Shown piece after piece: positions 3,561-38,065 of a stretch of DNA of 64,000 nucleotides; position 1 is the first letter of the stretch, and each line of letters starts with the position of its first letter. The stretch spans positions 1-64,000 of the forward strand of contig SISS01000015.1 of the NCBI GenBank assembly GCA_004332335.1, written 5' to 3'. This DNA comes from Methanoregulaceae archaeon UXB-2016. GTDB taxonomy: Archaea; Halobacteriota; Methanomicrobia; Methanomicrobiales; Methanospirillaceae. A program made the position numbers and the translations under genes. The notes under the pieces are model-generated. The model saw only the letters and a program-made list of their open reading frames with translations. It did no database searches and was not told where the DNA came from.

Positions 3561-5015
3561 ATGGTGTTCGGGTTCGAGGTGCTACACAAGGATGTCGCCG
3601 GCCGTATCGGCCGGCTCAGGATCGGATCGAAGACTGTTCGGACCCCGGCACTGCTGCCGGTGATCAACCCCCATCTCCAGATCGTCACGCCGAACGAGAT
3701 GCACGAGATGGGAGTCGAGGCCCTGATCACGAACGCCTACATCTTCTATCGGAGCGAGCGGTTCTACGAGGCCGCGCTCGAGCGGGGGCTCCACGCGGTC
3801 CTGGACTTTCCCGGGGTGATCATGACCGACTCGGGCTCGTTCCAGCTCTCGGTCTACGGCGATGTCGAGGTCGGCAATCGCGACACCCTCGAGTTCCAGC
3901 AGCGGATCGGCTCGGAGATCATCGTGCCCCTCGACCTGCCGACCCCTCCATCTGCCGACCGTGAGCGGGCCGAGGCCGAGCTCGAGGTCACGCTCGCCCG
4001 GATCGACGAGGCCTGCGGCCTTGTCGGGGAGAACTCGGTGCTCGCGGCCCCTGTCCAGGGCGGCATCTTCGAGGACCTTCGCGAGCGGGCCGGCCGGGAG
4101 GTGAGCGAGCGCGGGTGCGTGATTACCCCGATCGGTGCGGTCGTCCCCTTGATGGAGAACTACCGCTACCGCGACCTGGTCCGGGTGGTGCTCGCGGCCA
4201 AGCGCGGACTCTCGCCGGGCGCCTGCGTCCACCTCTTCGGCGCGGGCCATCCGGCCATGCTCGCGCTCGCGGTCGCGATGGGCTGCGACCTCTTCGACTC
4301 GGCCGCGTACGCCCTCTATGCGAAGGAGGGTCGGTACCTCACGGTCCACGGCACCCTCTTCCTCGGCGAGCTGACCGAGCTCCCCTGCTCCTGTGCGATC
4401 TGCCGATCGCACACGCCGGACACGCTCCGCCGCTCCCCCGAGAGCGAGCGCCTCCTCGCGCTCCACAACCTCCACGTCACCCTCGGCGAGCTCGCCCGGA
4501 TCCGCCAAGCGATCATGGACGGCACCCTCTGGGAGCTCGTCGACGAGCGCTGCCGGTCGCACCCGCGCCTCCTCGAGGGCTACCGCGAGCTCCTCCGCGC
4601 CTCCCCCTCGCTCGAGCTCTTCGACCGGAGCACCAAGCGACGGTTCTTCTACCGGGGGGACGAATCCTGCCAGCGGACCGAGGTCGTCCGCTATCACCGC
4701 GACCTCGCCAGGTTCGACATGGCCGGGCGGGTGCTGATCTCGTTCTTCGGGCAACCCGAGCCCGGTTTTGACCGGTGCCTCGCCTTCCGCCCGCCCTTCG
4801 GCCCCTACCCGCCCGCTCTCGCCGAGACCTTTCCCATCGGCCAGTGCGAGATCCCGTCCTGGGACGAGACGATGGTCAGGTCCGGGTGCCGGGGCATCGC
4901 GGCCCTGGTCGAGGCGAACCCGGACGCAGAGTTCACGGTTCGCTGCGAGCCGCGGTGGGCGGAGCTCGTCGCCTGTGAAGCCCCCGGGGTCCAGGTGATC
5001 TCCCATGAAGATTGA
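3561..5015 (+). CDS. tgtA: Archaeosine tRNA-guanine transglycosylase
   Basis: 484 aa. It exchanges guanine-15 in the tRNA D-loop for preQ0, the first tRNA-level step of archaeosine synthesis. The TIM-barrel catalytic domain shows the substrate-site Asp in MTDSGSFQ (about residue 90) and the archaeal motif [18 protein letters not shown] zinc site follows ([10 protein letters not shown], about residues 277-286), then C-terminal domains to 484. No PUA domain is apparent at the end; the partner ArcS carries it. ATG 3561 is preceded by AGGTG (3551-3555). An open frame extends further upstream but overlaps AMMECR1 and lacks homology. The last 11 bp overlap arcS, implying translational coupling. Confidence 0.95.
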
Positions 5016-6642
5016 GATCCGCTCTCGCGACGGCCTTGCCCGCGCGGGCGTCCTGGTCCACGGCGACCTCTCGTTCCCATGCCCGGGCGTGACCGAGGTC
5101 GACGCGGTCTTTCCGTCGCTCCTCGCCCGGGCCTACGAGAACGTCCCCATCTCGGCCGACGAGGCGTTCGTTGCGGCCTGGCTCGTCTCTGGCGAGGAGC
5201 CGCACACGGTCCACCCGGCCTATCACGAGCCGGTCTCCGCCGGAGAGGCCGTCATGGTCGCGAACTGGCAGACGGTCCTGGCCGATCCGGGGGCATATGT
5301 CCGGCATCTCGTGCCGCTCATCGAGTCGCTCCCGCCGGACGCGCCCCGGTATGCGCCGGCCGCCGCCACCCCCCTGAACGCAGCTCTCCTCGCCTGGACC
5401 GGGTTCGACCTCTTCGACTACGCAGCGACCGACCTGGCCGCTGCCCGGGGCCGTTTCCTCCTCCCCGAAGGGGAGCTCGGTGCCGATGCGCTTGAGAGCG
5501 GGGTCTGTGCATGCGAGGGATGCGTGGCCGGCGACCTCCGGCGCCACAATCGGCTCACGCTCGAGCGGGAACTCGCGCTGGTCCGGAGTTTCGTCCAGGA
5601 CGGACGGCTGCGTGACCTGGTCGACTCCCGCTGCCGGCTCGACGCCGCGGCCGTCGGCGTCCTCCGCCTGCTTGATCGCCGGTACCCGTTCATCGAGCGG
5701 TGGACGCCCGTGACGGGCCCGACCCCGATGCGGGCGAACTCGGCCGAGGCCCTCGGGCGGCCCGAGGTCCGCCGCTTTGCCGAGCGGGTGCTCAAGCGGT
5801 ACCGACCGTCTCGGACCGACACGGTCGTGCTCCTGCCGTGCTCGGCACGCAAGCCCTACGCCCTCTCGCAGAGCCATCGCCGCTTCGCCAGCGTCATCCG
5901 TGACCGGGCCCACGAACTGATCGTCACCTCGCCCCTCGGCATCGTCCCGCGCGAGCTCGAGCTCTGCTATCCCGCGGCGCACTACGACGTGCCCGTGACA
6001 GGATACTGGGACGCGGAGGAGGTCGCAGTCATAGCGGCTACCCTCGGCGCCTACCTCGAGCGCCACGCGTTCGGACGCGTCATCGCCCATCTCGAGGGCG
6101 GAGCCCTCCGCGTGGCAGAGGTGGCCGCGGCCGGGGCCGGGTGCACGCTCGAACGGACGGTCGCGGACGGCCGTCCCACCTCTGAGGCATCGCTGGGAGA
6201 GCTTGAGGCGGCCCTCGACGGGAGCCGCCGGCGGCTCGAAGACCCGCTCCGCGGCCTCGCCCTCTACCAGTTCGACCACGAACTCGACCTCTCGTGCCTC
6301 CGGAGCCGGGGGCGCTACCCGAGGCTGCAGTACCTCCGGGGGAAGACGCCCCTCTTTGGGATCGACGTGGATGCGGGCCTCCTCCGCCCGACCTTCGAGG
6401 GCTGGCGCCGCCTGGGCGAGGGCTACCGGGTCACGATCGACGCCTTTGTGCCGCAGGGCGATGTCCTCGCCCCCGGAGTGCTCGACGCCGACCCCCGGAT
6501 CAGGCCGGGAGACGAGGTCCTCGTGGTCGGCACGCTCGCGCTCGCAACCGGCCGGGCCGCGATGTCGGCCGCAGAGATGTGCGCCTCCACCCGTGGGGTC
6601 GCGGTGAGAAGGCGTAAGGTAATGAAACTGGAGCACAAATAA
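5005..6642 (+). CDS. arcS: Archaeosine synthase ArcS (TgtA2), lysine transferase to preQ0-tRNA
   Basis: 545 aa. It acts on preQ0-15 tRNA to complete archaeosine formation (lysine addition; a radical SAM partner, RaSEA, cleaves the adduct in many archaea). The N-terminal half is a degenerate TGT-like barrel. The ArcS signature [14 protein letters not shown] lies near residues 276-290, with the following region [28 protein letters not shown]-binding domain occupies roughly residues 470-545 ([15 protein letters not shown]... GDEVLVVG). ATG 5005 overlaps the tgtA stop by 11 bp. No separate RaSEA gene is seen in this window. Confidence 0.92.
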
Positions 6643-6676
6643 TACGACGAACCCCCCGGGTTCGGAGGCAGTCAGA

Positions 6677-7525
6677 GTGTACAGTGTGGTGAAGGCCGAG
6701 CAGCTGGCCGATAGAGTGCACGAGCTCGTGGTCGAGGCGCCACATGTGGCCCGACATGCGAAGGCCGGGCAGTTTCTGATCGTCCGCGTCGACCCGGATG
6801 GCGAGCGAATTCCGCTCACGATCTCTCGGGCAGAGGGCGACCTCGTCCGCGTCATCTTCATGACCATCGGCGCGACCACGTATCGGCTCGCCGAGCTGCG
6901 TGCTGGCGACTCGATTCTGGACGTGGCGGGTCCTCTCGGGCGACCGAGCGGGATCCCGCAGAATGCGACCTGCGTGGTCGTCGGAGGCGGTGTCGGGATC
7001 GCCTCCTGTCCGATCATCGCCCGGACCCTGCGAGGCGCCGGAAACCGTGTGATCGGGATCATCGGTGCGAGGAATGCGGACCTCATGATCCTCGAGGACG
7101 AGATGCGGCAGGCCTGTGACGAGCTGCACGTCACGACCGACGACGGCTCGATGGGACGGCACGGGTACGCGGCCGACGTCCTGAAGGAGGTGATCGAGGC
7201 CGAGCCGGTCGATCAGGTCTGGGTCATCGGCCCTGCGATCATGATGAAGGTCACCAGCGCCGTGACCCGGCCGAAGGGGATCCGGACCTGGGTCAGCCTG
7301 AACCCGATCATGGTCGACGGCACGGGCATGTGCGGCTCGTGCCGCGTGGTCGTGAACGGCGAGACGAAGTTCGCCTGCGTGGACGGCCCGGAGTTCGATG
7401 CCCACCAGGTGGACTTCGACCGGTTGATGCAGCGCCAGCGGATCTACCCGGAGGAGGAGCGCGAGGCCCTCGAGCGGCATCATGCCTCTCATTGCGGGTG
7501 TGAGCCGGGGGCGCGACATGGCTGA
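6677..7525 (+). CDS. sudB: NfnA/SudB-type FAD/[2Fe-2S] subunit of ferredoxin:NADP oxidoreductase (sulfide dehydrogenase beta)
   Basis: 282 aa, the size of NfnA/SudB. The ferredoxin-reductase FAD domain (IPLTISRAEGDLVRVIF) is followed by a nucleotide-binding domain (VVVGGGVGIASCPIIARTL, about residues 95-115). A C-terminal Cys cluster, GMCGSCRVVVNGETKFACVDGPEFDAH, ligates a [2Fe-2S] centre in NfnA. The start is GTG 6677 with GGAGG at 6664-6668, 8 nt away. The partner subunit overlaps its 3' end. In bacteria and Thermococcales the pair transfers electrons between NADPH, ferredoxin and NADH; in methanogens it is usually annotated as sulfide dehydrogenase, and which role applies here is unresolved. 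Confidence 0.85.
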   Translation: MYSVVKAEQLADRVHELVVEAPHVARHAKAGQFLIVRVDPDGERIPLTISRAEGDLVRVIFMTIGATTYRLAELRAGDSILDVAGPLGRPSGIPQNATCVVVGGGVGIASCPIIARTLRGAGNRVIGIIGARNADLMILEDEMRQACDELHVTTDDGSMGRHGYAADVLKEVIEAEPVDQVWVIGPAIMMKVTSAVTRPKGIRTWVSLNPIMVDGTGMCGSCRVVVNGETKFACVDGPEFDAHQVDFDRLMQRQRIYPEEEREALERHHASHCGCEPGARHG

Positions 7526-8870
7526 ACGCGCGTCGACCGTGCGCGTGCACGACTTCGGCGAGGTCGACCTCGGTCTCTCGCCGGACCAGGCCCAGGCCGA
7601 AGCCGACCGGTGCCTGCAGTGCAAGAAGCCGGCCTGCGTGACCGGCTGCCCCGTCGGCGTCGATATTCCGGCCTTCGTCCTTGCGATCGCCGAGGGCCGA
7701 TTCGGGGAGGCCCGGACCGGGATCCTCGAGGCGAACCTGCTGCCCGCCGTCTGCGGCCGGGTCTGTCCGCAGGAGACGCAGTGCGAGGGGGCCTGCGTCC
7801 TCTCGGGGAAGGATCGGGCGATCAACATCGGCGCGCTCGAGCGGTTCGCGGCCGACTTGGGTGGCCTCGAGGGCGAGGCTCCCGTCGCACGGGCTCCCGC
7901 GACCGGGCGGCGCGTTGCTGTCGTCGGCTCCGGACCGGCCGGCCTGACAGCGGCGGCCGAGCTCGCTCGGCGCGGCCACGCGGTCACGCTCTACGAGTCG
8001 CTCCACGAGCCGGGCGGCGTCCTCCTCTACGGTATCCCCGAGTTCCGCCTTCCCAAGGCCGTGGTGCGTGAGGAGATCGAGCGCGTGCTCGCCCTCGGCG
8101 TGGAGCTCCGGACGAACATGCTCGTGGGCCAATCCCTCCCGGTCGAGGAGCTGCTCGCCTATGACGCGGTCTTCATCGCGACCGGTGCGGGGCTCCCGTC
8201 GTTCATGGGCATCCCGGGCGAGGAGGTGAACGGGGTCTACTCGGCGAACGAGTTCCTGACCCGGGTCAACTTGATGCATGCCGACCGGTTCCCGGACTCC
8301 GGCACGCCGGTCAAGCGCGGGAGCAGGGTCGTTGTCACGGGCGGGGGGAATGTCGCGATGGACGCGGCCCGCGTGGCTCGTCGCCTTGGGGCGCGGGTCT
8401 CGCTCGTCTACCGGCGACGCGAGGAGGACCTTCCCGCCCGCCGCGAGGAGGTCCGCCATGCACGCGAGGAAGGGGTCGAGTTCATGACCTGCGCCGCACC
8501 CGTGCGCATCCTCGGCGAGCCCTGCGTGACCGGGGTCGAGTGCGTCCAGATGGAGATGTGCGCCCTCGACGAGAGCGGGCGACCCGCGCCCCGGGAATGC
8601 GAGGGTTCATCCTTCGTGATCGATGCCGACACCGTGATCCAGGCGATCGGGACCAGCCCGAACCCTCTGCTGGTCCGGCTCCTGCCGGGAGCCGAGACTG
8701 GGCGGAAGGGGAACCTGGTCGTGGACGAGGACGGGCGCACCTCGATCCCCCGCGTCTACGCGGGGGGCGACATCGCGACCGGGGCGGCAACGGTCATCCT
8801 CGCGATGGGTGCGGGCAAGCGGGCCGCGGCCGCGATCGATGCCGACCTCCGGAGCGGCATCGCTCCCTGA
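7482..8870 (+). CDS. sudA: NfnB/SudA/GltD-type NADP-dependent flavoprotein subunit
   Basis: 462 aa. The N-terminal iron-sulfur domain has ADRCLQCKKPACVTGCPVGV and CGRVCPQETQCEGACV (about residues 42-110). Two Rossmann folds follow: VVGSGPAGLTAAAELARRG (about 145) for FAD and VVTGGGNVAMDAARVARR (about 285) for NAD(P). The family includes GltD, SudA and NfnB. Length and pairing with the 282-aa SudB-like gene favour Nfn/Sud over glutamate synthase. ATG 7482 overlaps sudB by 44 bp and gives an N-terminus like characterised NfnB proteins; ATG 7518 (8-bp overlap) is the alternative. T-rich terminators follow the stop. Confidence 0.85.
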   Translation: MPLIAGVSRGRDMAERASTVRVHDFGEVDLGLSPDQAQAEADRCLQCKKPACVTGCPVGVDIPAFVLAIAEGRFGEARTGILEANLLPAVCGRVCPQETQCEGACVLSGKDRAINIGALERFAADLGGLEGEAPVARAPATGRRVAVVGSGPAGLTAAAELARRGHAVTLYESLHEPGGVLLYGIPEFRLPKAVVREEIERVLALGVELRTNMLVGQSLPVEELLAYDAVFIATGAGLPSFMGIPGEEVNGVYSANEFLTRVNLMHADRFPDSGTPVKRGSRVVVTGGGNVAMDAARVARRLGARVSLVYRRREEDLPARREEVRHAREEGVEFMTCAAPVRILGEPCVTGVECVQMEMCALDESGRPAPRECEGSSFVIDADTVIQAIGTSPNPLLVRLLPGAETGRKGNLVVDEDGRTSIPRVYAGGDIATGAATVILAMGAGKRAAAAIDADLRSGIAP

Positions 8871-30122: not shown

Positions 30123-30527
30123 ATGCCAGAACCGATCCCGAGCGCTGGGCCCCACGGTCGGGTCCTTCTCATGGACGATGAAGAGAGCATCCTTGAGATC
30201 ATGAGCCAGATGCTGCGCCGGCGTGGCTTTGATGTCTCCTGCGCCCGGGACGGCGCCGAGGCCGTGGCTGCACACCGGGACGCCATGGCGGCCGGCGCCC
30301 GTTTCGACACGGTGGTGATGGACCTGACCATTCCGGGCGGCGTGGGCGGCCGGGAGGCGATACATCAACTCCTCGCGATCGACCCCGGAGTACGCGCCGT
30401 GGTCTCGAGCGGTCACTCGAACGACCCGGTGATGGCCAGACCGATGGAGCACGGGTTCGTGGGCGCACTCCCGAAGCCCTACAGCATCGCCGAACTCGTG
30501 GCCGCGCTGCAGCGCGCGCTGGCGTGA
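30123..30527 (+). CDS. Stand-alone response-regulator receiver protein (CheY-like)
   Basis: 134 aa, a single receiver domain with no output domain. The acidic pair is in VLLMDDEES (about residues 15-19). The phospho-acceptor Asp is in TVVMDLTIPGG (about residue 64), the conserved Ser/Thr in AVVSSGHSND, and Lys-Pro in ALPKPYSIAEL. It is the first gene of a plus-strand run of ParA, PAS-CheW and CheR, so a chemosensory or signalling role is inferred. No histidine kinase is encoded in the window; the phosphodonor must be elsewhere. Confidence 0.85.
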   Translation: MPEPIPSAGPHGRVLLMDDEESILEIMSQMLRRRGFDVSCARDGAEAVAAHRDAMAAGARFDTVVMDLTIPGGVGGREAIHQLLAIDPGVRAVVSSGHSNDPVMARPMEHGFVGALPKPYSIAELVAALQRALA

Positions 30528-30582
30528 CAAGGGCTTTCTTTCAGCGTGACCATACCATTTTTTACCTCCAGACGAGTACCGT

Positions 30583-31485
30583 TTGATTACGGGTGGTAAT
30601 ATCTCCTGCATCACCTTCTCCCATCACAAGGGCGGCACGGGCAAGACGACTTCGTGCCTGAACGTCGCCGGTTTTCTCGCCCTGGCCGGGAAGAGGGTAC
30701 TCGTCGTGGACGCCGATCCGCAGGCAAACGCGACCATGGGTCTCGGCATCTACCCCGACTCCCGGCGACGGCACATGTACGACGTCTTCATGTCGGTCTT
30801 CGAGGGCTTTCCCAATGTCCCGATCACCGAGGTGATCACGAAGACCGAGGCAGGGATCGATCTCGCCCCTTCGAACCTGGACCTGGTCGGGGTCGAGCCT
30901 TCGCTCTACATGATCGACGACCGTGCGGGCATACTTCGCGACCTGCTCGAACCGGTGCGGCATGCCTACGACTACATCCTGATCGATACGCCCCCTTCGA
31001 TGGGGCAGTTTGTGATCAACGGCCTGGTCGCCGCGGACCACATCGTCGTGACCATCGATGCCGGCATCTTCGCCCTGCGCGGGATCGATGGGCTCGAGAC
31101 GATCTTCGCCGATATCGGCGAGATCGTCGGTCACCGGGTGACGGCGGACCTCGCCGTCCTGACGCGCTGGGAGGAGGCGCCTCCCCTGATGTCGGAGCCC
31201 TCCGTGCGCCCCGGGCTGGCAGGTCTCCTCTCCCGACTCTTCAAGCGCGGCGCTCCGCAGATCCCGGCAGCTGAGCCCCTGTCTCAGGGCGGTGCGACGG
31301 AGGCCGAACGGAGGGCCCGGATCGAGGCCGAGGTGAAGCGCAGGTTCGGACGGGTCGAGACCGTGCCGTTCTCGCGCGAGGTCTACGAAGCGCAGCAGCG
31401 GGGCCTCCCAATTGCCCAGTACGCTCCCGACTCCCCGGCCGGCCTCGCATACCGGCGGATCGCCGAGGGGGTCCTCGCATGGTGA
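30583..31485 (+). CDS. ParA/MinD-family ATPase in a chemosensory-like locus
   Basis: 300 aa. Deviant Walker A HHKGGTGKTTSCLN (about residues 13-26), Walker A' VLVVDADPQANATMGLG, and Walker B YDYILIDTPPS identify a ParA/Soj-type ATPase. The C-terminal 80 residues contain an insertion-like charged segment (LLSRLFKRGAPQ...EAERRARIEAEVKRRFGR). The only in-frame start before the motif is TTG 30583, bounded by a stop at 30547-30549. TTTTTTA at 30557-30563 is a plausible TATA box for a near-leaderless transcript. It overlaps the CheW gene by 7 bp. In bacteria, ParC/PpfA-type ATPases position chemosensory arrays; plasmid partition is unlikely with no ParB nearby. Confidence 0.85.
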   Translation: MITGGNISCITFSHHKGGTGKTTSCLNVAGFLALAGKRVLVVDADPQANATMGLGIYPDSRRRHMYDVFMSVFEGFPNVPITEVITKTEAGIDLAPSNLDLVGVEPSLYMIDDRAGILRDLLEPVRHAYDYILIDTPPSMGQFVINGLVAADHIVVTIDAGIFALRGIDGLETIFADIGEIVGHRVTADLAVLTRWEEAPPLMSEPSVRPGLAGLLSRLFKRGAPQIPAAEPLSQGGATEAERRARIEAEVKRRFGRVETVPFSREVYEAQQRGLPIAQYAPDSPAGLAYRRIAEGVLAW

Positions 31486-33887
31486 TGGAAGGGGGCCGGG
31501 AACCCAAGGGACGCCGCACGGGCGGAGACCGCGAGCCCGACGAACGCCCAGGCCGCCGGGCCCTCTTCACACCGGCGACGCCGCCCACCCGGAAGGCACG
31601 CCCGCCACAACCGGCCCCGGAGCCGACGGTCGAGGTCCAGGAGCCTGCGGTCCCCGGTCCCGACCCGGCCTCGCTGGCCGCTGCAATCCAGCAGGCCCTC
31701 GACGACCGGGTCCCCCTGATGCCCGATGCGTTCGGAGAGGCGTACGCGCCCGTGGCAGCCGCCGTGGGTCGCCTCCTGAGCGAGCTCGAGGGCGCGCGGT
31801 CCCGCCTGGATCAGGCGGCAGCCGATGCGGCAAGGCACGTACTCGTCGAGGCAGAGACCGCTGCCGCATCCCGGCGCCCCGTCCCGACCGTCCGGGACGT
31901 GCCGCTCCCGGCCCTGGTGCTCGGGCCGGATCTCACGTTCCGCGAGGCGAACGAGGGTCTTCTCGCGCTCGTCGGGGTTCCTGCAGGAGCACTCCACGGC
32001 ACACCCCTCTCGCAGTTCGTCCGCCGGCGTGACGGGGACCCGCCCGTCCTCGCGCTTCGCCGGAAGGCATCCATCCGCGCCGAGGTCACCCTGGACCTCC
32101 CCGCGGGCGAGGCCCGATTCACGGAGTACGTCAGCCCCATCAGCGGGGAGGGAGGCGACGTGGAGGGGCTCGTGGTGGTCTATGTCCCCGAGACGGTGCC
32201 GCCTGTGCCGGAGGACGACGGGTATGCACGCCTCTTCGGAGCGCTGATGCAGGAGGCCCCGCTCTCGATCGCGCTCCTTGACGCCTCGTTCCGCGTCCTT
32301 GACCATACCCCTGCCCTCGAGATCCTCCTGGGCTGCGACGCGGCGTGGCTCTCGACCCATCCCCTGACCGAGCTGCCCCTGCTCGAAGAGGTCGGCCAGG
32401 GCCTCGAGGAGATCGCCGACGGGGGGGAAGAGGCGTTCGGCGAGGTCGTGATCGAGGTCGACGCCACCCGGCACCGGCTCGAACGCTACGTCCTGCCCGT
32501 GCGCGACGCGGAGGGTCGCCTCTTCCGGCTGCTGGTGACCTTCACCGACCGGACCGAGGGTTTCGAGCAGGCGCACCGGATCGTCGCGCTCGAGCAGTAT
32601 GCTGCCGAGCTGCGGCAGGAGGCCGGGGAGAGTCTGGCCGAGCTGGAGCAACGTGCGGCGGAGAGACAGCGGCGGGCCGAGGAGGGCATGGCTGCGTTCG
32701 AACAGCGGGCGGGGGATCAGCAGCGAGAGATCGCCGAGGGCACGGCCGCGCTCCAGCTCGCCCTCTCCCGTCTCGCTGAGGGAGACTTGCAGCACCGGCT
32801 CGACCCGGGGCAGGGGCCGCTCGCGGCCGTCCGCGCGGCCTACAACCACGCAGCCGAGGCCCTTGACGAGCGGTTCGAGGCCGCAGCCGTCCCTGTGGCG
32901 GAGCCTGCACCAGCCGCCCCCGAGGCCGACGGGATGGTCCTGGTGAGCGCCGCCGAGATCACGGGCCTCCTCCTCGGCGCCCTCGCAGGAGAACGGGGCG
33001 AGCGCCTTCTCCTCGACGAGGACGATCCGCTCATGCCCCTCCGGGCCGAGGTGAACGAGGCCCTCGAGCGCCTCGAGGCGACATGGAGCGAGCCGTCGAA
33101 CACGGATGCAGAGTCTTCGGATGAAGCGACAGCGCGCGCACCGCCGGATCGCGAGAGCCAGAACCCCACAGAGATCGTCGCGCTCGAGCCCAGCATCCCT
33201 CCGGCCGTCGACCTGGCAGTCATGCCAGCTGAAGGCCCGGAGGCCGAGTTCGAACCCGCAGCAGAGGAGATCAGCCTGCCCGACAGTATCGTGGAGCCCG
33301 GATTCCCGTCACCGCTGGTGGTGACGGTCGCACCGACCGAGGAGACCGTAGGCCCGAAGGATGTGGCGGAGCCGTCCGACCTTGAGACCCACCGCGCCTC
33401 CGCCGCGGACCTCGGCGCCTATGTGGAGGTGGTCACCTTCGAGATGGCAGGTCAGCAGTACGCACTCGATATCCGCCTCGCCCGTGAGATCGTGGAGATG
33501 ATCCCGATCACCCCGATCCCGAGGTCCCCGTCCCACATCACGGGGATCATCAACCTGCGCGGTGAGATCACGACGATCCTGAACCTGTACCGGCTCCTCG
33601 GGCTGCCGGACCCGGGCCCGGGCGAGGGACAGAAGATCGTGGTGCTCGTGCCCGAGGCGGCCGAAGGGTCGAACGTCGGGATCATCGTCGACAACGTGCA
33701 CTCGGTCAACCAGGTTCCGTCAAGCCGCATCGAACTCAAGGGCGAGGACTCCTCGGCCGACTACACCGGGTTCGTCCGCGGGATCATACGCCAGGACAGC
33801 GCCGAGATCGTGGAGGGGAACCGAAACCTCGTGATCTGGATCGACATGCCCGCGATCCTGGAGGGGCTGATCGCCCAGTCCCCGTGA
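31479..33887 (+). CDS. PAS-PAS-coiled-coil-CheW fusion protein
   Basis: 802 aa, soluble, very acidic. Order: disordered Pro/Arg-rich head (1-60); helical segment (60-120); PAS-like domain (about 140-230); second PAS (about 250-365); charged coiled coil (370-430) running into a HAMP-like segment (ALSRLAEGDLQHRLD, about 425-465); long acidic linker; and a complete C-terminal CheW domain (EVVTFEMAGQQYALDIRLAREIVEMIPITPIPRSPSHITGIINLRGEI onward, about 650-800). There is no TM segment and no MCP signalling hairpin. Start ATG 31479 or 31485; the gene overlaps parA by 7 bp and cheR by 4 bp. Inferred role: cytoplasmic sensor-coupler linking a ligand or redox signal to a CheA encoded elsewhere. Confidence 0.85.
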   Translation: MVMEGGREPKGRRTGGDREPDERPGRRALFTPATPPTRKARPPQPAPEPTVEVQEPAVPGPDPASLAAAIQQALDDRVPLMPDAFGEAYAPVAAAVGRLLSELEGARSRLDQAAADAARHVLVEAETAAASRRPVPTVRDVPLPALVLGPDLTFREANEGLLALVGVPAGALHGTPLSQFVRRRDGDPPVLALRRKASIRAEVTLDLPAGEARFTEYVSPISGEGGDVEGLVVVYVPETVPPVPEDDGYARLFGALMQEAPLSIALLDASFRVLDHTPALEILLGCDAAWLSTHPLTELPLLEEVGQGLEEIADGGEEAFGEVVIEVDATRHRLERYVLPVRDAEGRLFRLLVTFTDRTEGFEQAHRIVALEQYAAELRQEAGESLAELEQRAAERQRRAEEGMAAFEQRAGDQQREIAEGTAALQLALSRLAEGDLQHRLDPGQGPLAAVRAAYNHAAEALDERFEAAAVPVAEPAPAAPEADGMVLVSAAEITGLLLGALAGERGERLLLDEDDPLMPLRAEVNEALERLEATWSEPSNTDAESSDEATARAPPDRESQNPTEIVALEPSIPPAVDLAVMPAEGPEAEFEPAAEEISLPDSIVEPGFPSPLVVTVAPTEETVGPKDVAEPSDLETHRASAADLGAYVEVVTFEMAGQQYALDIRLAREIVEMIPITPIPRSPSHITGIINLRGEITTILNLYRLLGLPDPGPGEGQKIVVLVPEAAEGSNVGIIVDNVHSVNQVPSSRIELKGEDSSADYTGFVRGIIRQDSAEIVEGNRNLVIWIDMPAILEGLIAQSP

Positions 33888-34690
33888 CCATGGAGAGCGA
33901 GGATTTTGAGACTCTGAAACGGGTCATCGAGAAGACACTCCGCATCAAGTGTCAGAACTACAAGGAGGCCTATATTCGCCGTCGCCTCCTCTCGCGCATG
34001 CGATCGACCGGGGCCGAGACCTACGAGGCCTATCTTCGATACCTCCGTGAACACCCGGCCGAGTTCGAGCTCCTTCGAAACGCCCTGACCATCAACGTCA
34101 CGGAGTTCTTCCGCGACCCCGAGGTCTTCGAGATCATTCGGTCCGACCTGCTTCCGGCCATCCTGAAGGACCGGGGCCGGGTCCGCCTCTGGTGTGCGGG
34201 CTGCTCCTCGGGAGAGGAGGCCTACACCCTTGCGATCCTCCTGACCGAGACCCTCGGCATGACCGGCACGCGGAATGCCATGATCTACGCGACCGATATC
34301 GACGAGGTCGTGCTCGGGCGGGCCAGGGAAGGGGTCTACGAGGAGAAGGCGCTTCAGAAGGTCCCCGAGGCGCTCGTCCGCAAGCACTTCATCCGACGTG
34401 AGGATGGGAACTACGAGGTTCGGCCACACCTCCGAAGCATGGTCCGGTTCAGCCGGCACGACCTGATGACGGATCAGCCGATCGTACGCTTCCTGGACCT
34501 GATCTCCTGCCGGAACGTCACGATCTACTTCACCGAGGGGCAGAAGAACGACCTGGCCCGGCTCTTTCACGGAGCCCTCTCTCCGGGAGGATACTACGTG
34601 ATGGGCAAGACCGAGTACCTCGCGCGCGAGGTCGAGCACCTCTTCTGCACTCACAACTCGATCCAGAAGGTCTTTGTGCGGAGCGCCTGA
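33884..34690 (+). CDS. cheR: Chemotaxis protein methyltransferase CheR
   Basis: 268 aa. The helical N-terminal CheR domain reads KQ-like CQNYKEAYIRRRLLSRMRSTG...LRNALTINVTEFFRDPEVFE. The SAM domain shows VRLWCAGCSSGEEAYTLAILL (motif I), YATDIDEVVLGRAREGVY, and LDLISCRNVTIYFT. Known members methylate glutamates of chemoreceptors. GTG 33884 overlaps the CheW gene's TGA (GTGA); ATG 33890 is an alternative. With no receptor in the window, its target may be the PAS-CheW protein's partner or an unlinked MCP. Confidence 0.92.
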   Translation: MTMESEDFETLKRVIEKTLRIKCQNYKEAYIRRRLLSRMRSTGAETYEAYLRYLREHPAEFELLRNALTINVTEFFRDPEVFEIIRSDLLPAILKDRGRVRLWCAGCSSGEEAYTLAILLTETLGMTGTRNAMIYATDIDEVVLGRAREGVYEEKALQKVPEALVRKHFIRREDGNYEVRPHLRSMVRFSRHDLMTDQPIVRFLDLISCRNVTIYFTEGQKNDLARLFHGALSPGGYYVMGKTEYLAREVEHLFCTHNSIQKVFVRSA

Positions 34691-35683: not shown

Positions 35684-35728
35684 TTTTATGGTTATCCCGG
35701 GCCACTCATACCTGTGCAGGAGATCGTC

Positions 35729-38065
35729 ATGAGATTGCGGCGCATACTTCCGATCCTGCTCCTCCTCGGAGCGCTTCTCGTACCCCTGGCCGGCGCGGTC
35801 ACGCTCGTGGTCGCGGCGAAGGACGCGACCCCCGCAGAGCGGGCCGCCGCCGATCTCCGGTGCGATGGGGTCGACGACCAGCGCGACATCAACAACGCGT
35901 TCAACCGCCTGCCGATCGACGGCGGCACGGTCCGGCTGACGGCCGGGACCTTCAACTGCTCGGAGAGCATCTTTCCGAACGAGAAGACGACCCTGCTCGG
36001 CGCCGGGCCCGGGCAGACGAAGATCGTGGTGATCAACGCCGTGAGCCCGTACAAGCCGGTCAGCGTGACCGTGCCCGACGTCCGCCTCCGGGGCTTCTCG
36101 CTCTACGGAAGCGGCGGGGTCATGATCAAGGAGAGCCGGGTCGTGGTCGAGGAGGTGACCGCGACGAGCCGCGGGCCCGACGGCTCTCTCTACAAGGCCG
36201 GCGGGAACGGCATGTTCTATATCTGGGCCGACGGTGAGACGATCGAAGACATCGCGTTCATCGATTGCACGGCCGAGGACGCGCACACCCACGGGTTCAA
36301 CCTGAACGCGATCAACTCTCCGCACGAGACGCGGAACATCCGGTTCATCAACTGTGTGGCCAGGAAATGCGGCTACGGCCTCGCCGGCGGATCCAGGTCC
36401 GAGTGGATGACCGGCTTCGACATCCAGGAGGACAACGACCTCTACGATGTCCAGGTGATCGACTGTCGGGCCGAGGACAACTGGCAGTCGGGCTTCCACT
36501 TCGAGCCCGGTGAGGACAAGGGCACGATCAAGAAGGCGATCACCTTCACCCGCTGCATCGCCTCCCGGAACGGGCAGCGCAATCCGGCCGCCTATCCCTA
36601 CACCTCGACCTTCCTCTCGGGGTTCTACGTCCACTTCAACGCGGTCGTGACCGACTGCCAGTCGATCGACAACAAGAATGCCGGCTTCTATGTCGAGGGC
36701 GGGGACCAGGTCGTCTTCACGCGCTGCACGGACCGGAACTCGACCTACGGCTGGAAGATCGTCAAGAACGCCCGGAACATCCGCCTCGAGGACTGCGCGA
36801 GCTACGGCGCTGAGGAGTGGGCCCTCTGGTCGGCGTTCGCCTCGAACGTCACGCTTGCCCGGTTTCGGCAGGTCGACGCAACCGGAGGGCGCGGATACCA
36901 GTCGATCCTCGGGTGGTACTACGACAACCCGAACTACCAGCTGCCCGTGACCGGGTCCTCGTTCGAGATCATGGCCTCGGGCAACCGCTCGCTTCCGATC
37001 ATCAACCAACCGGTCGGGAACATCTACCAGCTCTCCTGGGAGGGTGACGTCACCACCCTGCCGACCACGCCGCCCGTGACGACCCCGCCGGTGACGCCGA
37101 GCCCGGGAGCGCCGGTCGCGGCGTTCGAGCTCTCGCCCTCGCAGGGGAGGCCGCCCCTGAACGTCTCGTTCACGGATCGCTCTACCGGGGTTCCGAGGGC
37201 CTGGATCTGGGAGTTCGGGGACGGGAGCGTCTCGACCGAGCAGCACCCGAGCCACATCTACACCTCGGATGGGCTCAAAACCGTGAACCTGACCGCAATC
37301 AACGACCTCGGGTCGAACACCACCGTCGGGTACGTAACTGTCGGATCGGCGCCGTTCGCTGCGTTCTCGGCGACCCCGCGGACGATCGGCGCTGGGAGAT
37401 CGGTCGCATTCACGGACCGCTCGCTGGGCACCCCCACGGCCTGGGCCTGGGAGTTCGGCGACGGCACCCGCTCGACCGAGCGCAGCCCGGTGCACGTCTA
37501 CGTGCGCTCGGGCCTGTACACAGTGCGGCTGACCGCGTCCTATACGGGTTCGAGCGACGTGGAGCAGAAGACTGACTACATCCGGGTCGTGCCCGACGCA
37601 AACTTCGCCGCCGACCTCACGAGCGGCACCGCACCACTCACGGTCCAGTTCGTTGACCTCTCGACGGGCACACCGACCGGATGGTCCTGGAACTTCGGCG
37701 ACAACGGCACCTCGGGCCAGCAGCACCCGGTCCACGTCTATACGGCTCCCGGGACATACAACGTCACCCTTTCCGTGCGGAACGCCTGGGGCGCGATGAA
37801 CCTCACGCGCACGGCCTATGTCACGGTGGCGTTCTCACGCCCGCTGACCCCCTTCCCGGGCCAGGCCAGCATGCCGCGCGACCTCGACGGCGACGGCCTG
37901 TACGAGGACGTGAACGGCAACGGCCGGCAGGACTTCGCTGACGTCGTGCTCTTCTTCAACAACCTCGAATGGTGCGGAGCGAGCGAGCCGGTCGAGGCCT
38001 TCGACATCAACCGGAACGGCCGGATCGACTTTGCGGACGTGGTCGCGCTCTTCAACCGGATCTGA
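35729..38065 (+). CDS. Secreted beta-helix protein with three PKD domains and C-terminal dockerin-like domain
   Basis: 778 aa. The signal peptide is MRLRRILPILLLLGALLVPLAGA. A pectate-lyase-like right-handed beta-helix (about residues 40-420, opening with a pectate-lyase-3 style VDDQRDINNAFNRLPIDGGTVRLTAGTFNCSE) is followed by three PKD domains (each with WxFGDG or WNFGDN and an SFTDRSTG/DLSTG strand, about 460-700). The last domain is dockerin-like (DLDGDGLYEDVNGNGRQDFADVV and FDINRNGRIDFADVV). ATG 35729 has GGAG (35719-35722) 6 nt upstream; the GTG at 35714 is less well placed. It is probably a large adhesin or glycan-binding surface protein. The C-terminal domain matches that at 2.1 kb almost motif for motif. 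Confidence 0.88.
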   Translation: MRLRRILPILLLLGALLVPLAGAVTLVVAAKDATPAERAAADLRCDGVDDQRDINNAFNRLPIDGGTVRLTAGTFNCSESIFPNEKTTLLGAGPGQTKIVVINAVSPYKPVSVTVPDVRLRGFSLYGSGGVMIKESRVVVEEVTATSRGPDGSLYKAGGNGMFYIWADGETIEDIAFIDCTAEDAHTHGFNLNAINSPHETRNIRFINCVARKCGYGLAGGSRSEWMTGFDIQEDNDLYDVQVIDCRAEDNWQSGFHFEPGEDKGTIKKAITFTRCIASRNGQRNPAAYPYTSTFLSGFYVHFNAVVTDCQSIDNKNAGFYVEGGDQVVFTRCTDRNSTYGWKIVKNARNIRLEDCASYGAEEWALWSAFASNVTLARFRQVDATGGRGYQSILGWYYDNPNYQLPVTGSSFEIMASGNRSLPIINQPVGNIYQLSWEGDVTTLPTTPPVTTPPVTPSPGAPVAAFELSPSQGRPPLNVSFTDRSTGVPRAWIWEFGDGSVSTEQHPSHIYTSDGLKTVNLTAINDLGSNTTVGYVTVGSAPFAAFSATPRTIGAGRSVAFTDRSLGTPTAWAWEFGDGTRSTERSPVHVYVRSGLYTVRLTASYTGSSDVEQKTDYIRVVPDANFAADLTSGTAPLTVQFVDLSTGTPTGWSWNFGDNGTSGQQHPVHVYTAPGTYNVTLSVRNAWGAMNLTRTAYVTVAFSRPLTPFPGQASMPRDLDGDGLYEDVNGNGRQDFADVVLFFNNLEWCGASEPVEAFDINRNGRIDFADVVALFNRI

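Follow-up and report, generated by a model that had tools for sequence, protein, structure and literature searches.

A ParA ATPase module predicted to place cytoplasmic chemosensory arrays in Methanomicrobiales

What does a ParA-type ATPase do among chemosensory genes that have no CheA beside them? The question is raised by a 64,000-nucleotide stretch of Methanoregulaceae archaeon UXB-2016 (contig SISS01000015.1, assembly GCA_004332335.1, positions 1–64,000 of the forward strand; hereafter the window), in which four closely spaced or overlapping plus-strand genes encode a receiver, a ParA, a CheW fusion protein and CheR. Our analysis indicates that this module probably positions a cytoplasmic chemosensory array, partitions it, or does both. 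An earlier reading made from the letters of the window (the sequence-only reading) had offered, as one option, a positioning module feeding an unlinked CheA, and this is strongly supported by the gene order, by a ParB-like peptide on the partner of the ATPase, by the co-occurrence of ParA with CheA and by a sole CheA that is encoded with archaellum genes.

The module and the unlinked taxis genes

The ATPase, the predicted positioning motor, is a ParA/Soj-family protein of 300 amino acids (aa) with a TTG start (30583–31485; Pfam AAA_31/ParA, 2.1e-46), encoded 55 bp after a 134-aa single-domain receiver (30123–30527; Response_reg, 2.9e-18). Its gene overlaps by 7 bp that of an 802-aa PAS-PAS-CheW protein, the predicted cargo adaptor (31479–33887; CheW, 8.4e-28, and two PAS_4 stretches), which in turn overlaps by 4 bp the gene for a 268-aa CheR receptor methyltransferase (33884–34690; CheR, 3.1e-57). 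Open reading frames and Pfam matches bear out the earlier description of four genes on one strand, the last three overlapping by 4–7 bp, with a ParA-type ATPase between the receiver and the CheW protein. CheA, methyl-accepting chemotaxis protein (MCP) and CheB genes were all absent from the four-gene cluster by the same evidence, and no ParB gene stands beside the window ParA, whose neighbours are the receiver, the CheW fusion and CheR. A CheV-like adaptor was considered and ruled out, the receiver being a separate gene upstream of ParA and not fused to CheW.

By searching the rest of the genome (a draft of 2.37 Mb in 45 contigs) for cheA, MCP and archaellum genes, we found one CheA with archaellum genes and four MCPs. 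The single CheA lies on contig C24, unlinked to the module, in an operon with CheF, CheY, CheB, CheC and CheD directly downstream of genes for a KaiC-like ATPase, a T2SSE ATPase and a large membrane protein, which we read as FlaH-FlaI-FlaJ. The C24 che operon contains neither CheR nor a stand-alone CheW, and the window CheR is the only stand-alone CheR of the genome; it would provide receptor methylation for this unlinked operon, which has CheB and CheD. Two other CheR matches are CheB-CheR-PAS fusions of about 1,000 aa (L018 538–3573 and L019 13–2970). No CheA-containing che operon adjoins the module, and so the complete che operon next to the window that would have overturned the sequence-only reading did not appear. 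The che gene content of the genome therefore identifies the module as a detached part of the taxis system rather than a separate pathway. The suggestion that CheW and CheR are employed here outside taxis fared poorly, given one CheA and only this stand-alone CheR.

None of the four MCPs has a qualifying membrane span in a 19-residue Kyte–Doolittle scan, although one is truncated by a contig end. CheW matches number five, one being the C-terminus of CheA. Two near-duplicate small CheWs lie on the 10.8-kb contig C16 (L012 6171–6770 and 10187–10735), and the interval between the two contains no MCP. The contig of the module also encodes, about 37–39 kb downstream and beyond the window (C12:71496–73510), a soluble PAS-MCP and a CheW. 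Directly before them is a gene that, by eye, probably belongs to an acetate-transporter family (L011 10695–13510 for the set; C12:70695–73510), and the three may possibly form an acetate-taxis unit.

A ParB-like peptide on changing partners

Across a sample of 120 genomes of the order Methanomicrobiales, 67 carry an orthologue of the window ParA, almost always as a single copy and with 49–62% identity in full-length matches. All but one of these 67 also have CheA (66), CheA is present without the ParA orthologue in 24 more and both are missing from 29, a co-occurrence for which Fisher's test gives 3e-12, a figure that overstates independence because the genomes are related. In the 38 loci that we fetched, and where the contig allows, ParA is followed by at least one PAS/HAMP protein with MCPsignal or CheW at its C-terminal end, often by a small CheW, and then by CheR. 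The ParA-partner-CheR order is thus conserved across the order; the receiver upstream of ParA is retained only in the nearest relatives, L050 and L087, the latter an uncultured member of the Methanomicrobiales with the same four genes at 78, 85, 55 and 79% identity. ParA lies beside or inside a che operon in L061, L092, L198 and L208. The L208 locus (5054–8237), from a distant family of the phylum, is a che operon headed by ParA, with the order ParA-MCP-CheW-CheY-CheB-CheA-CheC-CheD.

Pfam matches divide the ParA partners into two classes, a PAS-(HAMP)-MCP protein without a membrane span, found in most relatives, and a PAS-PAS-CheW protein like that of the window, a class that also takes in L087 and further members among Methanoregulaceae and Methanospirillum relatives. 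The earlier description of a module without receptor therefore holds for the window variant but not for most of the family, which has a true MCP in the partner slot. Placed on the ParA tree, the CheW class requires about three changes, only one of them forced by strongly supported branches, and in a quick tree with moderate support the fused CheW domains cluster with the small CheWs of the same operons and not with other CheWs of the genome. Among the genomes whose MCPs we inspected, at least one membrane-spanning MCP was seen in 1 of 11 ParA-positive genomes versus 10 of 12 that have CheA without ParA (p = 0.0006, uncorrected for relatedness and with larger MCP sets only partly read), a contrast that fits a need to place arrays lacking a membrane anchor. 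ParA and cytoplasmic receptors are not strictly linked; the association is only a trend, to which G077, G008 and G014 are exceptions.

Nearly all genes that follow ParA share an N-terminal (K/R)PGRKALF(T/V/A)G, which emerged from a listing made without the motif in mind. Its window form is the putative ParA-binding peptide ERPGRRALF at adaptor residues 22–30 (31542–31568, plus strand); an example of a synthetic form of the archaeal peptide is MIDKPGRKALFTGPVVPG. At six loci (L050, L052, L058, L086, L092 and L210) a different gene follows ParA, and the motif is found on the protein just before CheR. Among 58 distinct partner sequences the G, R and L of the G-R-K-A-L-F core are invariant and its K, A and F nearly so, with conservation ending sharply on both sides. 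Because the core positions were part of the search pattern, independent support comes from the flanking K/R (54 of 58) and P (45 of 58) and from a test at the DNA level. A degenerate DNA pattern for PGRKALF matched 48 of the 120 genomes, all 48 of them ParA-positive, with 48 of its 52 matches at the ParA locus, whereas the reversed pattern, used as a control, had no match in the 120 genomes. The four matches outside ParA loci might have marked a second cargo; on inspection, none showed a protein with the motif at its N-terminus.

The peptide also moves between proteins. In G004 and G019 the sole MCP of the genome is a peptide-bearing cytoplasmic MCP, whereas in G101 and G023 the peptide is missing from the sole MCP and present on the CheW fusion; the peptide therefore goes with the array, on either protein. 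Outside the order, Methanophagales have the same peptide after ParA (IRKPGRKALFED), and the MCP after ParA in L208 carries the variant RRAGRKVLF. A cyanobacterial ParA of the same clade precedes an MCP-like gene in Trichodesmium (L097 7711–10850); the protein starts MTIPKKRNSGLQVFFEDTE, which is no more than suggestive.

A comparable motif marks the partners of segregation ATPases. A ParB-like partner, judged by its start, follows ParA in 67 control loci of other organisms, and 66 of these partners have G(R/K)GLxALI (LGRGLxALI) or a close variant near the N-terminus; the archaeal peptide aligns to it as G-R, two residues fewer, then A-L-F. In Myxococcus ParB, L11, L15, L18 and I19 are the residues that bind ParA, and R13 stimulates the hydrolysis of ATP (PMC12462528). 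On the ATPase side, Myxococcus ParA Y81 and E82 correspond to Tyr66 and Asp67, which are invariant in the che-ParA family, and the counterpart of D110 is Asp100, which hardly varies. Proteins that activate ParA/MinD ATPases, TlpT among them, as a rule carry a short basic peptide at the N-terminus of otherwise unrelated cargo domains (PMC7993993), and RPGRRALF is, across the partners, a short, basic and conserved N-terminal peptide on an interaction domain.

Behind the peptide, the window adaptor contains a first PAS domain at residues 140–235 (31896–32183; PAS_4) and a second at approximately 262–357 (32262–32549; the second PAS_4 stretch, with limits set at moderate confidence from the strand pattern of an AlphaFold2 model). 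These are followed by a helical HAMP-like linker at approximately 358–536 (32550–33086; low-confidence AlphaFold2 helices that align to the HAMP-like part of the L050 homologue) and by the CheW domain at residues 650–795 (33426–33863), the predicted array-binding end, which also matches solved CheW structures (best 8.9e-17). Pfam found no MCPsignal match in the 802 residues, and it is this result, together with alignment, that points to the lack of an MCP hairpin, because the AlphaFold2 model of the adaptor (mean predicted local distance difference test (pLDDT) score of 44, from 5 sequences) was not usable for fold comparison. The length, the two PAS domains and the missing MCPsignal agree with the sequence-only reading; its HAMP-like segment stands only below threshold, HAMP being below significance in the window adaptor and the aligned stretch of the L050 homologue being a sub-threshold match (4.6e-4). 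Residues 486–504, within this segment, are moderately hydrophobic (19-residue mean of 1.83) and are not read as a membrane span. Outside the CheW domain, no part of the adaptor is as conserved as the N-terminal peptide, which the sequence-only reading missed, as it did the true MCPs of relatives and the cytoplasmic nature of the genome's receptors; across partners the PAS region has diverged strongly, and the peptide is kept when the output domain switches from MCP to CheW.

The ATPase and its track

The window ATPase is a better match to ParA/Soj than to MinD. Its AlphaFold2 model (pLDDT 84) has Soj/ParA structures as best matches in the Protein Data Bank, the closest being chromosomal proteins, and its deviant Walker A motif KGGTGKT (residues 16–22; 30628–30648) is invariant across 39 aligned family members. 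In a tree that leaves out Vibrio ParC and Rhodobacter PpfA, the family forms a clade separate from six ParB-linked ParAs with support of 100/100. Cyanobacterial ParAs beside che genes (L096 and L097) join the che-ParA clade and not the ParB-linked one, again at 100/100, although the tool warns of long branches. The L096 locus (UBA8803, 3616–8579) places such a ParA beside CheA, CheW and CheR.

Over what surface would this ATPase cycle? The six ParB-linked controls have the Soj segment TM(F/Y)(D/N)xR or a near form of it, and mostly a basic residue in IPRNVR. In the che-ParAs of the order an insert of 30–50 residues replaces the TM(F/Y)(D/N)xR segment, and only 4 of 46 have a basic residue at the Soj PRNVR position. 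Myxococcus ParA R238 is required for DNA binding (PMC12462528), and by counting residues we infer that it belongs to the PRNVR element. In the window ParA the insert spans residues 200–240 (31180–31302), is missing from the ParB-linked controls and contains the amphipathic LAGLLSRLFKR. The LLSRLFKR within it, and FLKRLFG in L024, resemble KGFLKRLFGG, the membrane-targeting sequence of Escherichia coli MinD as quoted in PMC5471200. A crude amphipathic pattern, written after inspection, matches 30 of 46 ParAs compared with 7.9 expected from shuffled sequences. AlphaFold2 models the insert at low confidence, with a short helix at 213–219. The amphipathic stretch is internal (residues 211–222) and the C-terminus is Soj-like, in contrast to the C-terminal membrane-targeting helix of MinD. 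Nucleoid and membrane are about equally likely as the track. A more specific version, which we regard as a tentative and rather doubtful proposal, is a ParA/MinD hybrid, a Soj-fold ATPase that has acquired an internal, MinD-like membrane helix in exchange for nucleoid binding. A ParB-like peptide, shifted by evolution between receptor and CheW adaptor, would then let it tether a free-floating array to the membrane or pole close to the archaellum.

Elsewhere in the window, a plus-strand gene (35714–38065) encodes a 783-aa protein with a right-handed beta-helix, three PKD domains and a C-terminal type I dockerin, in an archaeal host; no cohesin search was made.

Mechanism, rival readings and known systems

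We propose that the receptors without membrane spans, CheA and CheW would form a cytoplasmic array; PMC7534058 cites a report of cytoplasmic arrays in Methanoregula formicica, in agreement with this. With its CheW domain the PAS-PAS-CheW protein would insert into the base plate of CheA and CheW. Its ERPGRRALF peptide, to judge by motif, adjacency and conservation, may bind ATP-loaded ParA dimers and trigger hydrolysis as the ParB N-terminus does; in most relatives a cytoplasmic MCP carries the same peptide. Cycling of ParA on a cell-wide surface, nucleoid or membrane, would then move or anchor the array, setting its placement relative to the archaellum and its inheritance at division. More speculatively, the PAS domains may allow metabolic or redox state to modulate docking or kinase output. 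Several observations weigh against this proposal. Compared with the ParB motif, the peptide is short by two residues; in the alignment to 8ray, the acidic pocket residue E117 of Myxococcus is not conserved in che-ParAs, nor is the pocket residue L152, at whose position every aligned member of the order has Gln. Twenty-four CheA-positive genomes do without this ParA, the association statistics ignore the relatedness of the genomes, and claims of absence depend on draft genomes, that of the window being 92.7% complete. Every functional step, moreover, is deduced from sequence.

Other readings account for parts of the same evidence. The adaptor could be mainly an input device, standing in for a receptor and using its CheW domain to tune CheA, with ParA merely assisting assembly; two PAS domains and a HAMP-like linker would suit this role, as would the true PAS-MCP receptor that occupies the slot in most relatives. 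The ParA-side peptide nevertheless survives when CheW takes the place of MCP, whereas the PAS region has diverged strongly, and no route is known by which PAS signals would reach CheA without an MCP hairpin, and we consider this reading unlikely. The Arg-rich window tail (GRR, GRR and RKAR) might instead bind the nucleoid directly, leaving ParA another job, much as FrzCD contacts DNA through a basic tail (PMC5716589); such a tether is quite improbable, since FrzCD conserves charge only whereas the archaeal peptide is an exact G-R-K-A-L-F, with hydrophobic residues, at the ParA locus.

A chemosensory pathway outside taxis, with CheW and CheR serving another output, would explain a cluster that has a private receiver gene and no CheA, MCP or CheB. 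We judge it very improbable, as the sole CheA is in an archaellum/CheF operon that lacks CheR, and ParA stands beside or within the che operon in the four loci named above. Hardly credible is an ordinary chromosomal or plasmid ParA located here by chance: its nearest solved structures are indeed chromosomal Soj/ParA proteins, but it has no neighbouring ParB, che genes lie alongside in nearly every locus read, and it tracks CheA and falls in a clade apart from the ParB-linked ParAs. Array positioning thus stays our preferred explanation.

How does such a module compare with known systems? In PpfA-TlpT of Rhodobacter sphaeroides, a ParA homologue likewise acts on a cytoplasmic receptor cluster, and TlpT, which has a basic N-terminal extension, has been proposed to activate the ATPase (PMC7993993, PMC6829392). 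That layout recurs in most relatives of the window module, whereas the window partner ends in CheW and not MCP; the archaeal side conserves a precise peptide, and PpfA uses nucleoid DNA whereas the archaeal ParAs mostly lack the Soj-type DNA-binding arginine. In ParC-ParP of Vibrio, a ParA-like ATPase adjoins an adaptor that is incorporated into the array by its C-terminal CheW-like (AIF) domain (PMC7534058), and the window ParA and CheW fusion genes are similarly adjacent, with CheW at the C-terminus. PAS domains are not mentioned for ParP in PMC7534058, however, and ParP binds the LID domain of CheA between P2 and P3, whereas in the CheA of the window genome P2 ends at residue 239 and P3 starts at 282; the two are joined by a charged linker of about 42 aa, with no LID-sized insert. 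Vibrio arrays are membrane-bound and polar through HubP, unlike the cytoplasmic archaeal receptors, and the archaeal genes lie outside the cheA operon. Because CheA lacks a LID-sized insert and is encoded apart, and because the partner is not a receptor, we file the module under neither system. On our best reading it would act like PpfA-TlpT in most relatives or like ParC-ParP in the window, as a distinct archaeal version.

ParA-ParB segregation shares the ATPase family and the same kind of activating peptide at the partner N-terminus, but the archaeal partner has no ParB fold and no DNA cargo, and its ParA forms a separate clade. MinD2 and MinD4 of Haloferax volcanii are ParA/MinD ATPases that affect the position of archaeal chemosensory arrays and archaella, although they are MinD-type rather than Soj-type, and the passages of PMC11588486 that we read do not mention a CheW or receptor partner that bears an activating peptide. 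Myxococcus FrzCD is a cytoplasmic receptor with a basic N-terminal tail that clusters on the nucleoid, but it binds DNA directly (PMC5716589). In the searched literature, from which subscription papers were mostly absent, we came across no account of an archaeal ParA-MCP or ParA-CheW system, and novelty is accordingly provisional; effects of MinD in Haloferax are described there, whereas a ParA system that places or passes on cytoplasmic archaeal arrays is not.

The module would represent a natural exchange of domains: ParA and peptide stay the same, a receptor or a CheW adaptor follows, and the PpfA-TlpT and ParC-ParP layouts are thereby bridged. It offers a gene-level candidate for how archaeal arrays may be placed and inherited, across an order of methanogens and in Methanophagales, relatives of ANME-1, and its short peptide provides a direct test.

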